From positions 1 to 33,211 of the forward strand of contig JAADGU010000072.1 in assembly GCA_013152195.1 (NCBI GenBank): DNA of 33,211 bases. The letters run 5' to 3'. The notes beneath the pieces were generated by a model, which saw nothing but the letters and a program-made list of their open reading frames with translations, was not told the origin of the DNA and made no database searches. This document shows positions 13,390-33,211 of the stretch, in pieces. The position numbers and the translations under genes were made by a program. Each line of letters opens with the position of its first letter. Position 1 is the first letter of the stretch. Source of the stretch: Nitrospirota bacterium. Its GTDB lineage: Bacteria > Nitrospirota > Thermodesulfovibrionia > Thermodesulfovibrionales > JdFR-85.

Positions 13390-13423
13390 CTGCTTGCTGT
13401 GAAACTACTAAAGAGGTTGCGAG

Positions 13424-13444
13424 ACCCTGGAATAAATTCAGGGT
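13424..13444. repeat. Small dispersed palindrome ACCCTG...CAGGGT before mreB
   Basis: ACCCTG (13424-13429) pairs with CAGGGT (13439-13444), with AAT/ATT extending the stem past a bulged G. The same design, with different but still complementary stem bases, occurs at 30332-30352, and a related perfect hairpin at 30287-30307. Confidence 0.65.
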
Positions 13445-13475
13445 GACAATTAAAGTTGCCGCAACAGGAGGATAG

Positions 13476-18903: not shown

Positions 18904-20424
18904 CTATGGATTGAACCTCCAGACAGTCATGTTGGAATCTCTGTTCTTATAAATCGTTCCTGCGACCAGGATCTTTCCATTTGAATCAACGGTGACGGAT
19001 TTGCCGGCGTTATGGCCGTCTCCGCTGTCGTAGGTCGCAACACCGTTTGTGCCGAATGTGGTATCCGGCGAGCCGTCAGTATTGAATCTCAAGACAGCCA
19101 TATCGGAAACACCGCCGTTGGAAATGTACCCTGTGACAAGGATCTCTCCATTTGAATCAACGGTAATGGAATAGCCGTACCCCCCATCGTAGGTCGCAAC
19201 ACCGTTTGTACCGAATGTGGTATCCGGCGAGCCGTCAGTATTGAATCTCAAGACAGTTATATCGGAATCAGCGCCGTTGAAAATGTACCCTGCGACAAGG
19301 ATCTTTCCATTTGAATCAACGGTGACGGAATAGCCATAATCGCCATACCCGCTGTCGTATGTCACAATGCTGCCTATGCCGAATGAGGTATCCGGCAAGC
19401 CGTCAGCATTGATCCTCAAGACAGTCATGTCGGAATCATCGCCGTTGTAGCTGGTTCCTGCAACCAGGATCTTTCCATTTAAATCAACGGTAACGGATTC
19501 GCCGTAATCATTGCCGTACCCGCTGTCGTAGGTTACAACACCGTTTGTGCCGAATGTGGTATCCGGCGAGCCGTCAGTATTGAACCTCCAGACAGTCATG
19601 TCGGAATCACTGAAGTTATAACTGGTACCTGCGACCAGGATCTTTCCATTTGAATCAACTGTGATGGATTCGCCGCGACTCCCGTACCCACTGTCGTAAG
19701 TTACAACACCGTTTGTGCCGAATGAGGTATCCGGTGAGCCGTCAGCATTGAATCTCAAGACAGCCATATCGGAAACACCGCCGTTGGAAATGTACCCTGT
19801 GACCAGTATCTCTCCATTTGAATCAACGGTGACGGAATAGCCATAATCATGGTCACCGCTGTCATAGGTCACAACACCGTTTGTGCCGAATGAGGTATCC
19901 GGTGAGCCGTCAGCATTGATCCTCAAGACAGTCATGTCGGAATCATCGCCGTTGTAGCTGGTTCCTGCAACCAGGATCTTTCCATTTGAATCAACGGTAA
20001 CGGATTCGCCGTAATCATAGCCGTATCCGCTGTCATAGGTCACAACGCCGTTTGTGCCGAAGGTTGTATCCAGCGTACCTGAATCATAGCAGACAACTGT
20101 CACATCCGTTACATCCGCCCCAGATATGGTTCCCGTATTGTTCGATACCGTGCAGCTCTGTCCTGCAGGCTGTGTCTTTACAGTCACATTGTAGCTTGCA
20201 CCGTTGGCAAGAGCGGTTGCAAAGGTGAAAGAACCGTCCTGTGTTACCGTGAGGTCGTCCCTGCCGTTGTTCTGTAAAACCACAAATTTTCCGGGTGCAA
20301 GCCCTGTCACCGTCCCCCCAACTGTGTAGGTGTGTGTACTATTGCCGCAGCCGCAGCTGGTCAGCACGACCGCAAGCGAGAGAAACATCAGGGTGATTAT
20401 TAATAATTTGCCGCCATTCTTCAT
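18904..20424 (-). CDS. Lipoprotein with seven Delta-60 (beta-propeller) repeats
   Basis: A 506-residue secreted lipoprotein. The N-terminus has a signal peptide with lipobox VLTSC (Cys24). Residues about 33-112 form a small beta domain (YTVGGTVTGLAPGKFVVLQNNG ... CTVSNNTGTISGADVTDVTVVC) common in outer-surface proteins. From residue 118 to the end come seven copies of a unit of about 55 residues, each opening DTTFGTNGV or DTSFGTNGV, with VTVDSNGKILVAG and VLRFNxDGSP, matching the Delta-60 repeat family thought to build a beta-propeller. Seven units fit a seven-bladed propeller. AAGGAGG lies six bases before the ATG. The function is unknown; ligand or surface binding is likely. Confidence 0.85.
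   Translation of the reverse strand: MKNGGKLLIITLMFLSLAVVLTSCGCGNSTHTYTVGGTVTGLAPGKFVVLQNNGRDDLTVTQDGSFTFATALANGASYNVTVKTQPAGQSCTVSNNTGTISGADVTDVTVVCYDSGTLDTTFGTNGVVTYDSGYGYDYGESVTVDSNGKILVAGTSYNGDDSDMTVLRINADGSPDTSFGTNGVVTYDSGDHDYGYSVTVDSNGEILVTGYISNGGVSDMAVLRFNADGSPDTSFGTNGVVTYDSGYGSRGESITVDSNGKILVAGTSYNFSDSDMTVWRFNTDGSPDTTFGTNGVVTYDSGYGNDYGESVTVDLNGKILVAGTSYNGDDSDMTVLRINADGLPDTSFGIGSIVTYDSGYGDYGYSVTVDSNGKILVAGYIFNGADSDITVLRFNTDGSPDTTFGTNGVATYDGGYGYSITVDSNGEILVTGYISNGGVSDMAVLRFNTDGSPDTTFGTNGVATYDSGDGHNAGKSVTVDSNGKILVAGTIYKNRDSNMTVWRFNP
18907..20073 (-). repeat. Seven tandem intragenic repeats of about 160-175 bp
   Basis: The units are nearly identical at DNA level over their cores (for example TTTCCATTTGAATCAACGGT and TATCCGG(C/T)GAGCCGTCAG recur). 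They vary mainly in the loop coding Y(G/D)xxYG and in the strand before SDM. Such homogeneity suggests recent duplication or gene conversion. Confidence 0.85.
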
Positions 20425-26784: not shown

Positions 26785-29040
26785 ATGAAGATACAGGACC
26801 TTATAAATGAACTTTCCGGGCTCTGCGGCATTATCCCGGAGTATTATGACGCATGGGACAGGCTCCGCACTGTTCCGTTTGAGACCAAAGCGGCTGCCCT
26901 CAGGGCCATGGGATATGATACCTCGGACCCGGAAAGGGTTAGGGAGGCGATAGAGGGGATTAAAGAGAAGAGGTATTGTACCCTGATTGAGCCGGTAAGG
27001 GTTGTATCAATAAACGCCCAGCCCGGTGAGTTCCCGTTGTGCATACCGGCTGAAGATGCTGATGAGAGCACAGTTCTAAGATGGTCTGTTACTGATGAGG
27101 AAGACAATACAGAGGTCAACAGCGCGGAGCTTTCAGGTATTCCCCGGCAGACAGTTAAAGAGATTGCCGGAAAGAGGGTTGTTGAGGTTTCAGTTCCAGA
27201 CAGGGATGACAGGCCAACAGGATATTACGATGTAAGCGTCGAGGTCGTTTCGGCAGGACATAACCTGTCAGGGCGGATGCGGCTCATCATAACTCCGGAC
27301 AGGGCCTACCTGCCCCCGGCTCTTGCGGACGGCAACAGGACCTGGGGCCTCGGAATAAACCTCTATGCACTGCGTTCCGGCAGTAACCAGGGAGTTGGTG
27401 ACCTGAGTGATTTGGGGGAGATGCTTCAATGGGTGGGCGGCGGGTTAGGTGGAGATTTTGTAGCGATAAATCCCCTGCACAGTATTACCAACCGGATGCC
27501 CTACGGCGTGAGTCCGTACTCTCCTCTAAGCCGCCTGTACTGCAACATGATATACATAGATATCTACGGGGTTGAAGACGTCAGGAATTCAAGAAGGGCA
27601 ATGGCAATCATTGAAAGCCCCGAATTCGTTGAGGAGCTTGAAAGGCTGCGACAGACTGAACTGATTGATTATGAGGGGGTTGCAAGACTCAAGGAGCCGG
27701 TGCTGAGTGCGGCATTTCAGTATTTATATGAAGAGCACCTCCTCTCCCTGACAGAGAGGGGGCAAGGGTTCAGGCTTTTTATCTCTTCCGAGGGAAAACC
27801 ACTTGATGACTATGCAACGTTTCTCTCCCTCCACGAACACTTTACGCAGAAAGGGCTTTGTCACTGGAAGGACTGGCCTAAGGAGTACCACAGCACCGAC
27901 ACTCATGAAGTCAGGATGTTCAGGGAGAGGCATGAAAAGAGGATAACCTTTCACAAGTACATACAGTGGCTGATAAATGAACAGCTTGGCGATGCATCAA
28001 AAAAGGCAGGGGAATCAGGCATGTCAGTCGGGCTTTACAGGGATCTTGCCGTAGGCTCACTCGCTGACGGCAGTGATGTATGGGGCAGTCAGGAGATATT
28101 TGCCATTGACGTAAACGTCGGGGCCCCGCCTGACAATTTCAGCCTGAGGGGCCAGAACTGGGGCTTTCCACCGTTGATTCCAGACAGGCTTCGTCAGCAG
28201 GGTTACGACTTCTTTATACAGGTTATCAGGGAGAATATGAAGCATGCCGGGGCCATCCGTATCGACCATGCCCTGGGGTTATTCAGGCTGTACTGGATTC
28301 CTCCGGGTATAAAGTCACAGGATGGTGTTTATATACGCTATCCCTCTGAAGACCTCCTGAGGATAATAGCGCTTGAGAGTATGAGGAATCGTGTAGTCGT
28401 GATTGCCGAAGACCTCGGCACAGTCGGCAAGGAAGTAAGGGAGACCCTCCAGAGGTTCGGGATGCTCTCATACAGGCTTTTTTATTACGAGAGGGACCGT
28501 TCAACCCGGGAATATCTGCCCCCGCAGGCATACCCTGAGATGGCGGTCACCTCGATCACTACCCACGACCTTCCCACCATCTCCGGGTTCTGGACCGGAA
28601 GGGATATCGAGGTCAAGAAGGCGCTTAATCTCTATCCCGACAATGAAGCCTGGTTGCGGGACCTGTCAAACAGGCAGGCAGACAGGCAGAGGCTTCTGAG
28701 GGCCCTCAAGCGGGCAGGACTGCTGCCACCGGGAATGCCCGCTGACCCCGGGAGGATACCTGTCATGACAGAGGAGCTATGCCTTGCCATTTACAGATAC
28801 CTTGCAATGACATCCTCAAAACTCCTGACAATAAATCTTGACGATATCATAGGGACAGCAGACCAGCAAAACCTGCCCTCAACCGTAAATGAATATCCGA
28901 ACTGGAGACGGAAGGTCCCTTACAGGATAGAAGAGCTGAAGAAGATGGAGGTCTTCAGAAAGCTCGTTGGGATAAGGGAGAAGCGTGATCAGGCAGATTG
29001 TATATCCGTAAATAAGGGGTATAAAGAGAGACATGATTAA
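26785..29040 (+). CDS. malQ: 4-alpha-glucanotransferase (amylomaltase / disproportionating enzyme)
   Basis: A 751-residue GH77 enzyme that transfers glucan chains between maltodextrins. The N-terminal 190 residues form an extra domain as in MalQ of enterobacteria; the catalytic barrel starts near TWGLGINLYALRSGSNQGVGDLSDL. Catalytic residues are in IRIDHALGLFRLYWIPPG (nucleophile Asp), VVIAEDLGTVGKEVRE (acid/base Glu) and ITTHDLPTISGFWTG (third carboxylate). PNWRRKVPY near the end is also typical. ATG 26785 is preferred over the in-frame TTG at 26779. The last few codons (GYKERHD) lie inside a repeat element, so the native C-terminus may have been replaced. It follows the GH57 gene by 53 bases. 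Confidence 0.93.
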   Translation: MKIQDLINELSGLCGIIPEYYDAWDRLRTVPFETKAAALRAMGYDTSDPERVREAIEGIKEKRYCTLIEPVRVVSINAQPGEFPLCIPAEDADESTVLRWSVTDEEDNTEVNSAELSGIPRQTVKEIAGKRVVEVSVPDRDDRPTGYYDVSVEVVSAGHNLSGRMRLIITPDRAYLPPALADGNRTWGLGINLYALRSGSNQGVGDLSDLGEMLQWVGGGLGGDFVAINPLHSITNRMPYGVSPYSPLSRLYCNMIYIDIYGVEDVRNSRRAMAIIESPEFVEELERLRQTELIDYEGVARLKEPVLSAAFQYLYEEHLLSLTERGQGFRLFISSEGKPLDDYATFLSLHEHFTQKGLCHWKDWPKEYHSTDTHEVRMFRERHEKRITFHKYIQWLINEQLGDASKKAGESGMSVGLYRDLAVGSLADGSDVWGSQEIFAIDVNVGAPPDNFSLRGQNWGFPPLIPDRLRQQGYDFFIQVIRENMKHAGAIRIDHALGLFRLYWIPPGIKSQDGVYIRYPSEDLLRIIALESMRNRVVVIAEDLGTVGKEVRETLQRFGMLSYRLFYYERDRSTREYLPPQAYPEMAVTSITTHDLPTISGFWTGRDIEVKKALNLYPDNEAWLRDLSNRQADRQRLLRALKRAGLLPPGMPADPGRIPVMTEELCLAIYRYLAMTSSKLLTINLDDIIGTADQQNLPSTVNEYPNWRRKVPYRIEELKKMEVFRKLVGIREKRDQADCISVNKGYKERHD

Positions 29041-29048
29041 CCCCGAAC
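29022..29048 (+). repeat. Copy of the AAAGAGAGACATGATTAACC repeat at the malQ 3' end
   Basis: The sequence TAAAGAGAGACATGATTAACCCCGAAC-like (29022-29048) matches the inverted ends of the element just downstream at 29096-29235 and supplies the last malQ codons and stop. Confidence 0.75.
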
Positions 29049-29095
29049 ATCAGGAAAAGCTCTCTTCGAAATTCAGTGATATATTGATATATGGC

Positions 29096-29235
29096 TAAAA
29101 GAGAGACATGATCAACCCTTCACTCATTCTCGTCGGGCATCCAGCCCTCCTCCGAGGAAAGTATCACGGTTCACCCTCCAGGTGAAGCCTTTGTGATACT
29201 TAAAACCGTTCAGGGTTAATCATGTCTCTCTTTTA
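29096..29235. mobile_element. Palindromic MITE-like element downstream of malQ
   Basis: The outer 27-bp arms (29096-29122 and 29209-29235; TAAAAGAGAGACATGAT... and its reverse complement) agree at 24 of 27 positions. Inside, AAGTATCAC (29159-29167) pairs with GTGATACTT (29193-29201), and GGTTCACC with GGTGAAGCC past a bulge, around the loop CTCCA. There is no coding capacity. A third copy of the arm sits at the end of malQ. Confidence 0.7.
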
Positions 29236-29321
29236 TATCGTTCAATGTTGATTTGTCATTCAATCCGGATTGCAGTATTCAATTGCAGAAGTAATAGCAC
29301 GGTTATGAGGATATAAAAAGC

Positions 29322-30170: not shown

Positions 30171-30283
30171 ATATGATATTAACCCGGCAACTATTCAGCT
30201 GAACTAAATTGGGCAGGCTCTGAACTTGTTTCAGGCCTGGCAAGGCGAATAGACTGCGTCTCATACCATTTTGCCCTTAATTT

Positions 30284-30355
30284 GTCACCCTGAACTTGAT
30301 TCAGGGTCTCATAACCTATTGATTCTTAGAGATTCTGGAGTAAATTCAGAATGAC
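30284..30355. repeat. Pair of small dispersed palindromes after the MBL gene
   Basis: ACCCTGAA (30287-30294) and TTCAGGGT (30300-30307) form a perfect hairpin around CTTGA. Next, ATTCTG (30332-30337) and CAGAAT (30347-30352) form a stem with GAGTAAATT between, the same layout as 13424-13444 but with different, still complementary bases. A similar TCTGAACTTGTTTCAGG sequence lies just before, at about 30218-30234. Confidence 0.7.
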
Positions 30356-33159: not shown

Positions 33160-33211
33160 CACAAAGAAGTGTCCCTTATGCGGTGGGAGAATGAGTGACG
33201 GCATGACAGTA
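33134..33211 (+). CDS. YgiT-type zinc-finger antitoxin, N-terminal part (runs off window)
   Basis: The ATG at 33134 overlaps the DUF4258 gene and opens MAGRKEKNNTKKCPLCGGRM SDGMTV up to the window edge. CPLCGGRM is the N-terminal zinc-finger motif of MqsA/YgiT-type antitoxins, which usually continue to a second CxxC and a helix-turn-helix. The 3' end lies outside the window. The tight overlap supports a toxin-antitoxin pair. Confidence 0.65.
   Translation, partial: MAGRKEKNNTKKCPLCGGRMSDGMTV

Follow-up and report, generated by a model that had tools for sequence, protein, structure and literature searches.

The window, a stretch of 33,211 nucleotides, carries a malQ gene (the identification holds, by PF02446) whose 3' end coincides with a long palindromic element. 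A palindrome of 140 bp had been predicted at this place, and its arms lie where they were expected, with 96% complementarity both between 29023-29048 and 29208-29233 and between 29096-29119 and 29212-29235. The 140-bp piece folds far better than chance would allow (z of approximately -9.8 as DNA and as RNA, equaled by 0 of 200 shuffles). The predicted extent was too short, however, since inverted repeats lie outside the palindrome, which is the inner part of an element that fills 28999-29269. The left outer inverted repeat, on the plus strand at 28999-29015 (TGTATATCCGTAAATAA), is degenerate and was aligned with an end from the source organism's own family, CCCGGATCCAGAGATAA, and with the orthologous element of the congener G004, where it reads TGTATATCCGGAAATAA. 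The right outer inverted repeat, on the minus strand at 29253-29269 (TCCGGATTGAATGACAA), was aligned with the CCCGGATCCAGCGATAA ends of other copies and with the orthologues in G004 and in a further congener, G002. In its uninterrupted form the element is approximately 196 bp long.

Within these ends lies a three-way junction unit, consisting of a stem, P1, and a core, which the covariance model R1 matches in full on the minus strand at 29097-29234 (125 bits, E value of 1.3e-28). Read along that strand, the right P1 arm (29213-29235) leads through a near-invariant joint between P1 and P3, UGAACGG (29206-29212), into hairpin P3 (29158-29201, apical sequence CACCUGGAGGGUG), then through the joint CCUCGGAG (29150-29157) into hairpin P2 (29133-29149, GAGGGCUGGAUGCCCGA), and finally through a near-invariant joint between P2 and P1, CGAGAAUGAGUGAA (29119-29132), to a second left P1 arm (plus strand, 29098-29118) that is the present partner of the right arm. 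Both hairpins have a GGA in the loop. The middle joint is unchanged in 52 of 52 sequences, and its CUCG is paired with CGAG at the foot of P2. Where the original prediction had one inner hairpin of about 17 bp there are therefore two, P2 and P3, and the core of what had been viewed as a simple palindrome is far more structured and widespread than that view implied. R1 finds a single copy in the window, and a second motif at the window end (33187-33206) was rejected as a coincidence.

The arm that was predicted to provide the last codons and the stop of malQ does so, the stop lying at 29038-29040. In all, the final 13 codons and the stop (CISVNKGYKERHD, plus strand, 28999-29040) are element derived, because the congener G004, which has the element, shares this tail and two congeners without it end differently. 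The proposed comparison of MalQ C termini among relatives gave ...KGYKERHD* in G004, which has the element, versus ...RETRQRTAEA* in G005 and ...READRV* in G001, which do not. The comparison shows that the element replaced the tail of malQ, as had been suspected. The third arm, in contrast, is the original left P1 arm of the resident element (plus strand, 29023-29043) and not an end that landed separately. In G004 and G002 an element sits at the same malQ site; its one left arm forms the end of malQ and runs straight into the core. In the source genome the left arm is followed by 54 bp of filler DNA (29044-29097), absent from G004 and G002, then by the second left arm, and then by a core of another subfamily. 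Forty bases of the filler (29045-29084) are 92.5% identical to a coding stretch in G004:C63 and G003:C188, in a putative Lon-type protease gene. We infer that one copy inserted at the malQ 3' end and gave it the new 13-codon tail, that a later break-repair event at the palindrome would have placed the filler between the old left arm, thereby split off, and the element, and that the core was probably exchanged for one of another subfamily; break repair and core exchange together would explain the layout. No clear 5-bp duplication was seen around the malQ copy, whose left end is degenerate.

Other repeats in the window were noted in passing. The inverted pair at 13411-13455 and 30276-30320 (CACCCTGAACTTGATTCAGGGTCTC type) possibly belongs to a second dispersed palindromic family. 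A 90-bp repeat at 813-977 and 1457-1554 (97% identical, 644 bp apart) is followed by a CTTCAGC/CTTTAGC minisatellite, and at 18904-20424 a beta-propeller protein with DUF5122 repeats is encoded by 168-bp DNA units that are nearly identical (88% at most), suggesting recent internal duplication.

Copy number and the folded core

The source genome holds approximately 44 copies by R1, and a DNA search of the same assembly (1.58 Mb, 152 contigs) gave 57 matches to whole and partial copies. The genome search originally proposed, which used the arm, recovers that exact sequence at only 12 places with up to 3 mismatches; the feature common to distant copies is the core between the arms, not the arms. 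Within the order of the source organism, R1 found copies in 30 of 41 genomes, at 0 to 79 each, with a distribution that is patchy even inside the family. A scan of GTDB species genomes with the core pattern CACTCATTCTCG-N15-21-CTCCGAGG returned at least 93 stretches, the hosts among the matches listed being Nitrospirota, Nitrospinota, Desulfobacterota, Latescibacterota, Gemmatimonadota, Auribacterota, UBP3, Melainabacteria, and several Patescibacteria, and 33 genomes drawn from that scan had 1 to 98 R1 copies each. The core fold is kept in at least eight bacterial phyla; the Gemmatimonadota and Latescibacterota loci have flanks in common and may be one lineage. The core pattern had no match among 2.9 million viral contigs of IMG/VR, and blastn of the window copy had no plasmid match in PLSDB. 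No neighboring gene recurs, with 113 neighbors yielding 185 Pfam families of which the commonest had only five members; the plus strand of the core runs with the transcribed strand of neighboring genes in 26 cases and against it in 14, a bias that is not convincing. Rfam gave no match in the window and none over the element at 13 other loci, and literature searches on the core sequence, Nitrospirae palindromic repeats, three-way junctions in miniature inverted-repeat transposable elements (MITEs), and CsrA with mobile repeats returned nothing relevant. The family is apparently undescribed so far.

In every copy compared, the core forms a three-way junction in which joining strands connect stem P1 with hairpins P2 and P3. 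P1 has at least 17 pairs, and at almost all of its positions each of the four Watson-Crick pair types occurs; the same holds for P2 and P3. The joining strands, UGAACGGWUU, CCUCGGAG, and CGAGAAUGAGUGA on the minus strand (in short form UGAACGG, CCUCGGAG, and CGAGAAUGAGUG), are nearly invariant. Among 52 diverse sequences the covariation score was 0.652, versus 0.189 for shuffled and 0.12 to 0.17 for slid partners, and all 33 varying pairs showed double changes. The mismatches that P1 does contain are directional: on the plus strand, A.C exceeds G.T in 72 copies and the reverse holds in 10 (P value of 1e-12, which is optimistic in that copies share ancestry). The source genome alone gives 15 to 0, and the direction is the same there, in G014, in G044, and in the scan set. 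Because an A.C on one strand is a G.U or G.T on the other, it is the minus strand that must fold, which supports the minus strand, as RNA or as single-stranded DNA, as the selected form. Between orthologous resident copies in close relatives no compensatory changes were seen; resident copies drift without compensation, which suggests that it is the moving copies that restore perfect pairing.

The core most likely works as a folded minus-strand RNA, which presupposes that copies are transcribed. P1 would need only to pair, and the joining strands may bind a partner common to all hosts. Like the proposed core, integron attC sites are recognized as a single strand that folds and leaves conserved bases unpaired. 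The core differs from them in that its motifs do not, by eye, resemble RYYYAAC/GTTRRRY and in that its copies are scattered rather than set in cassette arrays.

Several copies in the source genome depart from the common layout. L003 (1605-1675) and L006 (1611-1681), on contigs C144 and C37, share an additional palindromic piece of approximately 72 bp that is nested behind P3 (TCATGGGTGCTTCATGGTAATGAAGC...) and looks like a further small repeat inserted into the element. In L004, L005, L014, L025, and L028 a hairpin module, CCCGAAGTACTTCGGG, takes the place of either a portion of P2 or the left half of P3, as though hairpins were swapped as units. In L006, L009, and L016 the core is inverted relative to two unlike outer ends, as expected of recombination between P1 arms.

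Loop sequences and CsrA

According to PMC7652899, CsrA sites have the SELEX consensus RUACARGGAUGU and present its GGA in hairpin loops. The minus-strand P2 and P3 loops in the family of the source organism read CUGGAUG, CAGGAUG, and similar, and ACAGGAUGU, which agrees with the consensus, occurs in the P2 of several genomes. We counted a genome as GGA positive when at least half of its copies had GGA in the loop, and as CsrA positive by PF02599. A P2-loop GGA was present in 23 of 24 CsrA-positive versus 3 of 20 CsrA-negative genomes, and a P3-loop GGA in 19 of 24 versus 0 of 20 (Fisher P value of 3e-8 in each case), a correlation that is partly confounded by lineage and to which some genomes contribute one copy only. 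The stems vary freely in both classes of genome, whereas the loops are held with CsrA and look random without it (GAA, CTTTA, CAAG, TTAG, CGAG). Predictions set beforehand for 12 further genomes were correct in 11 (Fisher P value of 0.018), among them two positives and one negative within the source organism's own order. The exceptions to the rule are L074, which was the wrong prediction, and G048, G049, G050, and G067; part of the copies in the source genome have CGA instead of GGA in P2. CsrA is encoded in the genus and family of the source organism. The only CsrA match in the source genome itself (G000:C58, 6075-6229) consists of two fragments in different frames, an assembly error or a broken gene, and the gene is single and whole in all congeners.

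There is a strong inference from these patterns that the loops are candidate CsrA-binding sites in CsrA-bearing hosts. In such hosts the P2 and P3 GGA loops would probably bind a CsrA dimer, and each copy, where transcribed, could serve as a small sponge for CsrA or place the RNA that contains it under CsrA control. CsrA is unnecessary for the persistence of the element, because many copies persist in CsrA-less genomes, and the same fact rules CsrA out as the partner of the invariant joints. CsrA-antagonist RNAs of the CsrB/RsmZ type likewise have GGA in hairpin loops, several per molecule, in a host with CsrA. Unlike them, the element is mobile and repeated, places two loop sites on a three-way junction in a predicted transcript, and is also present, lacking GGA loops, in CsrA-less hosts.

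The same MITE-like transposon could instead owe its core to folded single-stranded DNA, for example a structure bound by a transposase or host factor at replication, with the GGA loops kept by descent. We consider this the less probable reading, at perhaps one chance in a handful or slightly better. Folded single-stranded DNA would leave the same minus-strand trace that is expected of selection on RNA, CsrA status is partly confounded with element lineage, and the core is kept in CsrA-less genomes. Descent accounts poorly, however, for loops that are fixed with CsrA and random without it while stems vary in both, for the 11 of 12 genome predictions that held, and for the ACA..UGU flanks of the loop GGA, which fit the published consensus. 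It is unlikely, in turn, that the covariation of P1 reflects mutual correction of its arms by template switching in replication rather than selection. Long palindromes are prone to such switching, and the filler and second arm at malQ resemble its products, but neither the 72:10 strand asymmetry nor the invariant joints can arise in this way, nor can the covariation of the short hairpins P2 and P3.

Ends, target duplications, and mobilization

Complete copies in the family of the source organism, G007, G014, and G056 are bounded by terminal inverted repeats of the form CCyrrATyvAGCGAT. These are clearest in young copies of the deltaproteobacterial genome G056 (CCTAAGCTGAGCGATT, CCTAAATTGAGCGATT); the outer ends are CCCGGATCCAGCGATAA in the source organism's family, CCCAAATCCAGCGATAA in G014, and CCTGAATTGAGCGATT in G007. 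Copies in G056 sit between exact target duplications of 5 bp, among them GGTAA, TTATA, AAACA, TATCA, and TTGTT. With ends assigned automatically, exact duplications were found at 5 of 10 copies in G056, 3 of 14 in the source genome, and 3 of 16 in G014, against 0 to 1.1% in mismatched controls. Outer ends were not recognized in G044, G058, and G051, and no duplications were found at P1 ends in those three genomes and G070. One copy in G014 (L373, contig C153) is flanked by a direct repeat of approximately 17 bp (ATAGACTTTCCTTTAAC) instead of 5 bp.

The inverted repeats and exact 5-bp duplications identify a MITE-like nonautonomous transposon of approximately 195 to 212 bp. The original prediction of a noncoding mobile element moved in trans is thereby borne out, as the element is multicopy and has no transposase gene inside. 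Of the target duplications that were to be looked for, those at other copies exist, and the malQ copy has no clear one. Of 28 source-genome loci that were given anchors, almost every one could be matched to a site in G004, the closest congener, and most of these sites have no intact element. Remnants of the element persist at several of them, with microhomologies at the joins, which shows that elements have been lost as well as gained. Both the mobility and the structure of the element are well supported. It is very improbable that we are dealing with a conserved, non-mobile structured RNA gene family repeated by chance: deep covariation, invariant joints, and a few orthologous occupied sites would suit one, but copy numbers of 0 to 98, sites empty in close relatives, 5-bp duplications, and decaying copies would not.

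The elements reviewed in PMC10969869 are also short, noncoding, and intergenic, with terminal inverted repeats, a target duplication, and transcripts expected to fold as hairpins. The present element differs by its internal three-way junction, invariant joints, and strong covariation over at least eight phyla, no counterpart of which appears in the cited review text.

Mobilization is probably due to a DDE-type transposase from the IS1380 family, or closely related to it, that makes 5-bp target duplications. ISEcp1, a member of the IS1380 family, has CC ends and a 5-bp duplication. The element resembles that family (ISEcp1, ISPme1) in its CC-type ends and 5-bp duplication; it differs in having no transposase gene inside and in that IS1380 is missing from most host genomes. 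IS1380 copies in the host family of the source organism have ends of the form CCYnnAnnnnGCG, as does the element, and those next to IS1380 transposases (NF033539) in G014, G011, and G004 (CCTGAATCCTGCG, CCTAAAACAAGCG) are similar, not identical, to the element ends. Of the first 13 bases of the G014 IS1380 end, 10 are shared by the element ends of the source organism, G014, and G007, and 9 by those of G056. IS1380 as a correlate of copy number was rejected, as its transposase (PF13701) occurs in just 7 of 42 genomes and does not follow copy number. A PF13701 search found none in the source genome (G000), G058, and G062. Given these few genomes and the negative search of the source genome, IS1380 as the mobilizer is a reasoned guess. 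At L328 in G014 (contig C50, 156-2940), a transposase gene of the IS1634 family stops no more than 10 bp from the left end of an intact IS1380-family copy.

RAYT (Y1) transposases were disfavored as mobilizers. REP/REPIN elements are, like this one, palindromic, intergenic, high-copy repeats moved in trans, and the source genome has three Y1/RAYT-type genes (L136, L137, and L138, on contigs C61, C56, and C40), but such an origin is the least credible of those weighed, given that no element motif lies beside any of the three genes, that the element has a three-way junction, and that 5-bp duplications and long terminal inverted repeats are not known as RAYT traits. The Y1 genes L137 and L138 lie amid short G+C-rich palindromic repeats of their own (GGGCGGGG.CCCCGCCC and GTAGGGGC.GCCCCTAC types).

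Implications of the element family

Taken as a whole, we favor, with a probability of roughly 0.6, a MITE-like transposon moved in trans that carries a conserved folded unit, whose loops would bind CsrA in CsrA-bearing hosts, and one copy of which would have had the insertion history described at malQ. A more speculative extension, which we hold only tentatively, is that the family carries its own RNA, plugged into global regulation, across at least eight phyla, so that transposon load might tune CsrA activity in the manner of a transposable CsrA sponge.

MITEs usually pass for deletion relics in which hardly anything besides the ends is conserved. The present family keeps an internal, RNA-like structure across a broad span of bacteria, and this structure appears to track the presence of CsrA in the host. 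The malQ comparison also documents a new C terminus that the gene of a metabolic enzyme received from such an element. If confirmed, the family would account for the density of palindromic repeats in many uncultured Nitrospirota and, within the searches made, would be the first transposon family known with a binding platform for a global RNA regulator. The comparison of loop sequence with the presence of csrA would offer a simple handle on how mobile DNA rewires posttranscriptional control.
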